The position numbers were made by a program, and so were the translations under genes. Shown piece by piece: positions 54,563-56,667 of a stretch of 64,000 nucleotides of DNA. The stretch is from Fibrobacter sp. UWEL (lineage in GTDB: Bacteria; Fibrobacterota; Fibrobacteria; Fibrobacterales; Fibrobacteraceae): positions 1 through 64,000 of the forward strand of contig NZ_FRBE01000020.1 in assembly GCF_900142535.1 (NCBI RefSeq). Reading direction: 5' to 3'. Within the stretch, counting starts at the first letter, position 1, and each line of letters starts with the position of its first letter. The notes beneath the pieces were generated by a model that was given only the letters and a program-made list of their open reading frames with translations, did no database searches and had not been told where the DNA came from.

Positions 54563-54871
54563 TTACATCAGACCGGGGATTTTCATGCCGCCAGTGATGT
54601 CGGAAATGCTGGACTGGGTTGCTTCGTCCTTCTTCTTCACCGCGGAGTTGATGGCGGCCATAATCAGGTCTTCCAGAGCTTCCACGTCGTCCTTGTCCAC
54701 TGCGTCCGGGTTAATCTTGATCATGGTGACCACGCCCTTACCGTTCATGGCGACCTTGACCATGCCACCACCGGCCTCGGCTTCGAAACTCTGGGCCTTC
54801 AGGTCGCTCTGGGCCTTCATCATCTTGCTCTGCATCTTCTGAAGGTCCTTCAACATTTTGCTCATATCCAT
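54563..54871 (-). CDS. ybaB: YbaB/EbfC nucleoid-associated protein
   Basis: A 102-aa small DNA-binding dimer. It shows the family pattern: MLKDLQKMQSKMMKAQSDL (helix), EAEAGGGMVKVAMNGKGVVTMIKINPD (strand region) and DVEALEDLIMAAINSAVKKKDEAT. AGAGGA precedes the start. It lies 38 nt after dnaX, the usual bacterial pairing (dnaX-ybaB-recR), although recR does not follow here; a terminator ends the unit. Confidence 0.95.
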   Translation of the reverse strand: MDMSKMLKDLQKMQSKMMKAQSDLKAQSFEAEAGGGMVKVAMNGKGVVTMIKINPDAVDKDDVEALEDLIMAAINSAVKKKDEATQSSISDITGGMKIPGLM

Positions 54872-54909: not shown

Positions 54910-56667
54910 CTAGTCGTTAATTTCCGTGTCGGGGTCTGATTCCTGAATCTGCTCCACTTTCTTCTTGGGCTTGATGGAGAAAATCAACTCGCTGTCGAAT
55001 GTCTGCATGAATTTCTGGAAGCCAGGTTCTTTTTGCAGGTCCAGTTCCAGCGGGGAAAGTGTCGCCTGGTATTTTTGCTGTCTTTCTTCCTCGTTGTAGG
55101 AACGGGTCTTGATGGAGATTGCCACCGGAGTCTGGAGTTTTTCCTCGAGAATCTGCTTAACGCGGTCCAGATAGTCGGGGTTTTCCGTCATCTGCTTGTA
55201 GTTCCAGGATTCCTGAACGTTGTCGCCAATGTAGGTGATGGCGATGGGGAAGGGCGTTTCCTGGAGGTTTCCTGCTTCCAGAACGGTGTCGTTCAATGCG
55301 GCGGAGAACATAAAGTCGTCGTCTGCGATGCGGGTGCGAATAGCACCCCAGGCGGAAACGATGTCGTATCTGGAATAGGTGGCTCCATTTCCAGAAAATA
55401 CGTTCTGGAGGGCGTCAAAGGGACTTTCTTCCTGAGGTCTTGCGGTTGCGGGACCCTCGGAAGAGTCCAGCATTTGGCTAACTTCCGCTACTTTTTTTTT
55501 TAACGCCTCGTCAGAGGTGCTACCAGTTGCTTTAGAGGGGTCGTTGATGGCCGCCAAAGCTCTACGAAGGTCAGCCAGATGATCCAGCCAGGCCATTCGG
55601 GCGAAAGTGGTTTCTACCAGAAGTCTAGGGTTGGTGCTGTAGCGCAAGGAACCCTGCAGGTCCGTGAGCATCTTGGAAATTCGCAGGATGTCGCCGTTCT
55701 TCAGGCTGGGGGTTGCACTCTTGTACTTGGTGTAGAGTTCGTCCGTCAGGTTCAAAGCATCCGGGGTGAACGCTTCCAGACGGGTATAAAGCAGATTGCG
55801 CAGGAACTTGCCGAAACCATCCAGCAGGGGCATGAATTCAATGCCGCGCTTGCAGGCTTCGTCCACCATCTTGAAGCAGGACTTCAAATCGTGGCTTTCG
55901 ATGGCGTTGATCAGGGTAAAGAACAGTTCAACAGGAGGAATTCCCAATACGTTGCGTACGGAATCCGGATCCATGTTGTTGCCGGTAAATGCGTAAGCCT
56001 GGTCGAAGAAGGTAAGGCCGTCGCGCATGGAACCGTCTGCCTTTTCGGCGAAGATATCCAGGGTTTCGTCGGTGGCGTTGATGCCTTCCTGTTCGCAAAT
56101 GTAGCGAAGGCGGCTGCGGACCTGTTCTACGGACAGACGCTTGAAGTCAAACCTCTGCACGCGGCTAAGGATGGTGGGGAGCACCTTGTTGACTTCGGTA
56201 GTAGCAAAGATGAAGATTACATGTTCAGGGGGTTCTTCCAGAGTCTTCAGCAATGCGTTGAAGGCTGCGGTAGAGAGCATGTGGACTTCGTCGATGATGA
56301 AAATCTTGTACTTGCCAAGAACGGGAGGGTACTGAACCTTTTCGATCACTTCGCGGATGTTGTCCACGCCAGTATTGGAGGCTGCGTCTATTTCGAAAAC
56401 GTCCATGGAGCTTCCGGAAAGGATGCTCTTGCAGCTTTCGCATTCGCCACAGGGATGCAGCGGGTCGCCGCCGGTACAGTTCAGGGTTCTTGCAAGGATA
56501 CGGGCACTGGTAGTCTTACCCACGCCGCGGGTTCCCGTGAAGAGGAATGCGTGGTGGAGACGGCCTCCTTCAATTGCATTCTGGAGGGTTTTTGCGATGT
56601 GTTCCTGTCCGACCATGTCGGAGAAAGACTGAGGACGCCACTTTCGGGCCATTGCTACGTATGCCAT
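54910..56667 (-). CDS. dnaX: DNA polymerase III subunit tau/gamma
   Basis: This clamp-loader ATPase is 585 aa. It opens with YVAMARKWRPQSFSDMVGQEHI, then GTRGVGKTTSARILA (Walker A), the zinc-binding cysteines (LHPCGECESC), IIDEVHML (Walker B) and ILSRVQRFDF (SRC). Domains I-III end by about residue 370. At residues 389-392 (LKKK) the coding strand has ten consecutive A's (55492-55501). Gaining one A gives a stop after four codons and losing one gives a stop at once, so a 392-396-aa gamma form is likely. TATACT ends seven bases before the ATG. ybaB follows. Confidence 0.95.
   Translation of the reverse strand: MAYVAMARKWRPQSFSDMVGQEHIAKTLQNAIEGGRLHHAFLFTGTRGVGKTTSARILARTLNCTGGDPLHPCGECESCKSILSGSSMDVFEIDAASNTGVDNIREVIEKVQYPPVLGKYKIFIIDEVHMLSTAAFNALLKTLEEPPEHVIFIFATTEVNKVLPTILSRVQRFDFKRLSVEQVRSRLRYICEQEGINATDETLDIFAEKADGSMRDGLTFFDQAYAFTGNNMDPDSVRNVLGIPPVELFFTLINAIESHDLKSCFKMVDEACKRGIEFMPLLDGFGKFLRNLLYTRLEAFTPDALNLTDELYTKYKSATPSLKNGDILRISKMLTDLQGSLRYSTNPRLLVETTFARMAWLDHLADLRRALAAINDPSKATGSTSDEALKKKVAEVSQMLDSSEGPATARPQEESPFDALQNVFSGNGATYSRYDIVSAWGAIRTRIADDDFMFSAALNDTVLEAGNLQETPFPIAITYIGDNVQESWNYKQMTENPDYLDRVKQILEEKLQTPVAISIKTRSYNEEERQQKYQATLSPLELDLQKEPGFQKFMQTFDSELIFSIKPKKKVEQIQESDPDTEIND

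Follow-up and report, generated by a model that had tools for sequence, protein, structure and literature searches.

The dnaX locus of Fibrobacter sp. UWEL

The window, a stretch of 64,000 nucleotides from Fibrobacter sp. UWEL (contig NZ_FRBE01000020.1), carries a dnaX gene on its minus strand, with ybaB as the next gene after it. The identification as DnaX is supported by a TIGR02397 match of 435 bits against a cut-off of 250, and the best matches of this dnaX are Fibrobacter records. The features of the locus are listed below.

54910-56667, minus strand: dnaX, encoding the 585-residue clamp-loader subunit tau in the templated frame (ORF with TIGR02397 and Pfam matches)
55561-56667, minus strand: segment common to the predicted short and long products (AAA+, lid and domain III, residues 1-369)
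55502-55521, minus strand: imperfect hairpin adjoining the run (GCACCTC-TGAC-GAGGCGTT region), perfect in many relatives
55492-55501, minus strand: putative A10 slippery run, from the third base of codon 389 to codon 392
55488-55490, minus strand: TAG closing the predicted product with one A lost (LKKK-stop, 392 residues)
55478-55480, minus strand: TAG closing the predicted product with one A gained (LKKKSSGS-stop, 396 residues)
54910-55491, minus strand: tau tail, in the window species read solely in the templated frame
54563-54871: ybaB

The minus-strand letters around the run read GAG GCG TTA AAA AAA AAA GTA GCG GAA GTT AGC. Pfam places the end of DnaX domain III at residue 369, and the predicted products of 392 and 396 residues retain the AAA+ region and domain III and lack the tau tail. 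The initial annotation had reported the A10 run at 55492-55501 and nearby stops in both shifted frames. Its statement of the sequence was exact, with both TAGs lying precisely where it had put them, and its claim that either shift yields a product of 392-396 residues without the tau tail was borne out by the shifted-frame translations and the Pfam domain limits.

Runs of at least ten A or T residues occur at seven sites in the 3.53 Mb genome, and the dnaX run is the sole one of the seven that lies deep inside a gene; five of the others lie outside gene-like ORFs, and one is close to the start, possibly miscalled, of a 344-residue ORF. Among the A9 sites checked in this genome, 14 of 29 fell within gene-like ORFs, compared with 90% of the bases in the same loci, a scarcity that would be expected if the polymerase slips on such runs. 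Within the window, the number of A9 matches was unremarkable (5 against 2.2 expected), and the dnaX run draws its significance from conservation.

Conservation of the run in Fibrobacter and across Fibrobacterota

The genomes compared included 79 others of the genus Fibrobacter. A full match was obtained in 76 genomes of the genus, of which 75 carried A10 in the same phase and one carried A11; six further GTDB contigs, some of them redundant, agreed with the genus-wide A10. The initial annotation had named synonymous changes that break up the run in close relatives as grounds for rejecting its reading, and we found no such change within the genus. In all 75 distinct coding sequences, the lysine codons 390-392 were AAA, whereas other conserved lysines were AAA in 1-35% and the lysine codons of dnaX away from the run were mostly AAG. 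Codon 389 encoded L, V, T or I, yet always ended in A (TTA, CTA, GTA, ACA, ATA), even where this required the rare leucine codons TTA (2.8% of leucines) or CTA (4%). Codon 388 was GCG in every sequence (17% elsewhere), V393 was GTA in 75 of 75 (21% elsewhere), and codons 387-395 showed the lowest synonymous variability of the whole of dnaX across the 75 coding sequences. These fixed codons and the low variability around them indicate selection on nucleotides. The KKKV peptide is itself invariant in the genus, as would be expected if no recoding took place and the run were kept only because the protein needs Leu-Lys-Lys-Lys-Val. However, the exclusive use of AAA, the A-ending codon 389 across four amino acids and the fixed GTA all argue against this explanation, as do the off-frame stops, which are maintained through different codons, and we regard it as highly improbable. 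As judged by genomic comparison, the A count, the flanking codons and both off-frame stops are shown to be under selection.

Across the phylum, 145 of the 149 Fibrobacterota genomes examined had A8-A12 at codon ~375-428 of dnaX. In the 151 loci counted, which take in the six GTDB contigs, the run was A10 in 121, A9 in 15, A11 in 10, A12 in 4 and A8 in 1. For 28 of 35 genus labels, each of the two frames other than that of tau met a stop within 6 codons; other positions of these genes would predict 2.6 such labels. One genus, g5, is counted under two labels. The clearest exceptions to this closure were g2 and g4, in which the tail itself is short.

Variation in run length raises the alternative that the run is a DNA contingency locus, at which replication slippage alters the number of A residues and turns tau on or off between cells or strains. 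The A11 runs in one of the 76 Fibrobacter genomes (L167) and in one g6 genome (L180) would fit such a locus, as would the variable length in other families. Against it stand the exact A10 of 75 of the 76 Fibrobacter genomes, the expected essentiality of tau, which means that switching it off should be harmful, and the tight placement of the off-frame stops, needless for a simple on/off switch; we consider a contingency locus very unlikely. In L167 only the A count differs from that of its relatives, and the A11, although present in the assembled sequence, could be an assembly error.

The A run was absent from four of the 149 genomes, two in f5 g16 (L206, L207) and two in f8 g30 (L231, L233). 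DnaX of L206 and L207 has a short tail, with ~440 residues in all, and the slippage site has apparently been lost in this pair. In L231 and L233, domain III is followed by a 21-bp minisatellite, with 11 copies in L231 and at least 5.5 in L233; this repeat may itself be prone to slippage.

The moving tau frame and the proposed slip

The frame that encodes the tau tail differed between relatives. Over the 151 loci, tau lay in the templated frame in 127, in the frame reached by removing one A in 15, and in that reached by adding one A in 9. One A must be lost for tau in, for example, L167 (A11), L218 (A10) and L222 (A8), and one gained in L180 (A11) and in L210 and L202 (both A10). In g2 and g4 (11 species, A9), a by-eye comparison placed a tail resembling the tau C-terminus, PFEKDLKENPHFADFVKYMGLKL, in the frame with one A fewer. 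This tau-like tail is much shortened (~80-110 residues) and occurs in that frame only (L184 and L186-L194 in g4, L185 in g2); the templated frame of these genes has a low-complexity end that often finishes F-R-L-x-I. As read from the frames, a slip is required for tau in lineages of the g2/g4 type and for gamma in the window. In L180 the closed frames have rotated together with the tail. A frame that rotates while the run stays in place points to a mechanism that supplies all three frames, and so speaks for slippage in transcription rather than for a ribosomal shift in one direction. The movement of the tau frame amounts to a natural experiment for telling transcriptional slipping from ribosomal slipping.

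We consider it likely that the A10 run is a programmed slippage site, at which slipping by RNA polymerase would yield tau and a gamma-like protein from one gene. RNA polymerase would lose register on the A:T hybrid and produce transcripts with 9, 10, 11 or more A residues. Those with 10 or 10+3n would encode full-length tau, and the remainder would run into a stop a few codons later, the product being gamma-like and ~392-396 residues long, with the ATPase and domain III and no tau tail. A hairpin would assist this process in many Fibrobacteraceae, the hairpin of the window species being weak. Both the attribution of the slip to the polymerase rather than the ribosome and the production of both proteins are what we infer from these comparisons.

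In E. coli, gamma and tau are made from one dnaX gene by a -1 programmed ribosomal frameshift. The Fibrobacter gene would resemble it in outcome, with gamma-like and tau products predicted here. However, it differs from E. coli dnaX in having stops in both shifted frames and a longer run, and in lacking both an in-frame A_AAA_AAG and a conserved downstream stem-loop. The A_AAA_AAG motif is absent in frame from the window dnaX, which reads TTA AAA AAA AAA GTA. In the genus sequences, no conserved stem-loop was detected 0-45 nucleotides downstream (median p 0.62 against synonymous shuffles), RNAalifold gave no downstream consensus structure, and an Rfam scan of 55300-55700 returned no match. The downstream stretch reached p 0.05 on synonymous shuffling in 16 of 62 genus sequences, and in the window the 60 nucleotides downstream of the run (55432-55491, minus strand) form a fairly stable fold, somewhat better than that of shuffled sequence (-19.3 kcal/mol, z -1.9). 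Many relatives have a GACGCC...GGCGTC hairpin ~23-50 nucleotides downstream, though it is not genus-wide. The downstream region was thus folded in several species but not conserved, and we rejected it as a general, E. coli-like stimulatory element.

These observations bear on the alternative that the slip is ribosomal, by -1 (or +1) on A_AAA_AAA, with termination at a nearby stop giving gamma and with an upstream GAGG acting as a Shine-Dalgarno-like stimulator, an element that in the E. coli-type shift lies ~10 nucleotides upstream. A_AAA_AAA is a shift-prone heptamer and lies in frame, GAGG ends 4 nucleotides before the run in 57 of 75 coding sequences, where it also forms one arm of the hairpin, and individual species do have some downstream structure. 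However, the run exceeds the seven nucleotides that such a shift requires and is uninterrupted throughout, both off-frames are closed, opposite shifts would be required for tau in different relatives, and GAGG has been lost in the g5, g7, L154 and L043 groups while the run has been retained. Together with the non-conserved downstream stem-loop, this makes a ribosomal shift an unlikely explanation of the site, and some ribosomal shifting may occur alongside polymerase slippage. The initial annotation had invoked both the E. coli and the Thermus precedents. Of the two, the Thermus-type transcriptional slip is the better fit, given the A8-A12 runs across the phylum, the closed off-frames, the rotating tau frame and the failure to find a conserved downstream stem-loop.

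Slippage in dnaX is of a kind already known, from the A9 run of Thermus and from two-ORF dnaX genes with A10. According to PMC1088944 and PMC5009743, the hybrid of RNA polymerase is 9-10 bp, the enzyme slips on runs of about that length, and the A9 run in Thermus dnaX makes about half of the product gamma. Fibrobacter dnaX resembles that of Thermus thermophilus in its sense-strand A run, its templated tau, the nearby stops in both other frames and its predicted short gamma product. It differs in having A10 instead of A9, in the position of the run (about two-thirds through the gene, compared with seven-eighths in Thermus) and in the putative hairpin that adjoins the run in many relatives. PMC3711429 describes two-ORF dnaX genes in the GeneTack set, nine with A10, for which transcriptional realignment was predicted, and takes frame transitions in different directions as a criterion for inferring such realignment. 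Fibrobacterota with tau outside the templated frame resemble these genes. The tau ORF of the window is continuous and would therefore escape a split-ORF search of the type described there; the single passage of PMC3711429 found to name the Fibrobacter group is a count table. In the literature searched, PMC3711429 was the sole paper on frame transitions among those that mention Fibrobacter together with dnaX. Within that literature, what appears to be new is the lineage, the scale of the comparison, the rotation of the tau frame within one phylum and the candidate hairpin. The comparative evidence from 149 genomes would extend dnaX slippage to Fibrobacterota. The moving tau frame also carries a warning for annotation, as gene callers will record some of these genes as truncated.

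A candidate hairpin 5' of the run and the layout outside the phylum

Sequences directly 5' of the run can form a hairpin in many of these genes. Perfect stems were found in L006 (AGCGCCTC-CGAC-GAGGCGTT-A10), g5 (CGCTTC-TAAT-GAAGTG-TT-A10), g6 (GACCCTG-CTTCC-CAGGGTT-C-A10), g14 (GACCTC-TCC-GAGGTC-A10) and g4 (TCCTCT-AAA-AGAGGA-AAACC-A9). Of 12 Fibrobacteraceae genus labels, 8.5 had a perfect stem of at least 5 bp adjoining the run, where 0.7 would be expected; over the whole phylum, 13.5 of 35 labels had an adjoining stem of at least 5 bp, where 2.5 would be expected. The genus mean folding energy 5' of the run was -8.5 kcal/mol, compared with -4.0 for synonymous shuffles, and 76% of cells paired in the fixed register, compared with 38-53% when it was slid. 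Double changes were seen in the stem, from C-G to T-A at (-15,-6) and from T-A to G-C at (-14,-7). The RNAalifold covariation term was small, and covariation support for the hairpin is therefore modest. The stem is kept without GAGG in g5, g7 and L154, which suggests that a hairpin explains the sequence better than a Shine-Dalgarno role does.

No perfect adjoining stem of at least 5 bp was found in the window species or in most of f7. The hairpin of the window species (-6.8 kcal/mol, z -0.14 against dinucleotide shuffles) is no better than shuffled sequence, and we do not claim it as established there. In the L043 group, which holds F. succinogenes records, the hairpin is weak. The imperfect or weak stem in these cases suggests that the hairpin is an accessory in part of the lineage and not a universal element. 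Just behind the hybrid, it probably aids slippage in many Fibrobacteraceae. A precedent is an insertion sequence of Roseiflexus, in which a stem-loop mediates transcriptional slippage at a U5C5 motif with deletion of one base (Penno 2015, as cited in PMC5009743). In many Fibrobacteraceae a GC-rich RNA hairpin is likewise predicted immediately 5' of the slippery motif; they differ from it in that the motif is an A8-A12 run and in that some members of the lineage, the window species among them, have an imperfect hairpin or none. We tentatively propose a broader reading, in which the Fibrobacteraceae and g14 (f4) would use hairpin-assisted slippage in an essential gene, and slippage throughout the phylum would be independent of the templated frame, the tau tail being free to drift among the three frames since each of them is always provided by slippage. 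If real, the hairpin would offer a testable route for tuning slippage efficiency.

We also inspected 74 dnaX loci of other groups, chosen by similarity to the query and so not a fair sample. The layout, taken here as an A9-A11 run followed by a stop within 10 codons in each off-frame, was absent from the sampled Bacteroides, Prevotella, Desulfuromonas, Geobacter and Lachnospiraceae, and an adjoining stem of 5 bp was seen in only 1 of 20 non-Fibrobacterota runs checked. The same layout was present in Rikenellaceae (Alistipes 12 of 12, and Tidjanibacter), Saprospiraceae, Aureispira, Chitinophaga, one Balneolaceae, two of four Marinimicrobia and two other Bacteroidetes (L096, L115), and in L075 the run is A10 and tau is reached by adding one A. 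That Rikenellaceae, Saprospiraceae and some Marinimicrobia share the layout suggests a mechanism that is old or has evolved more than once, and not a set of scattered cases. All 13 Rikenellaceae copies (L059, L070, L074, L077, L078, L081, L085, L087, L089, L091, L098, L107 and L119) have A10-A11 at codon ~361, with both other frames stopped within 10 codons.
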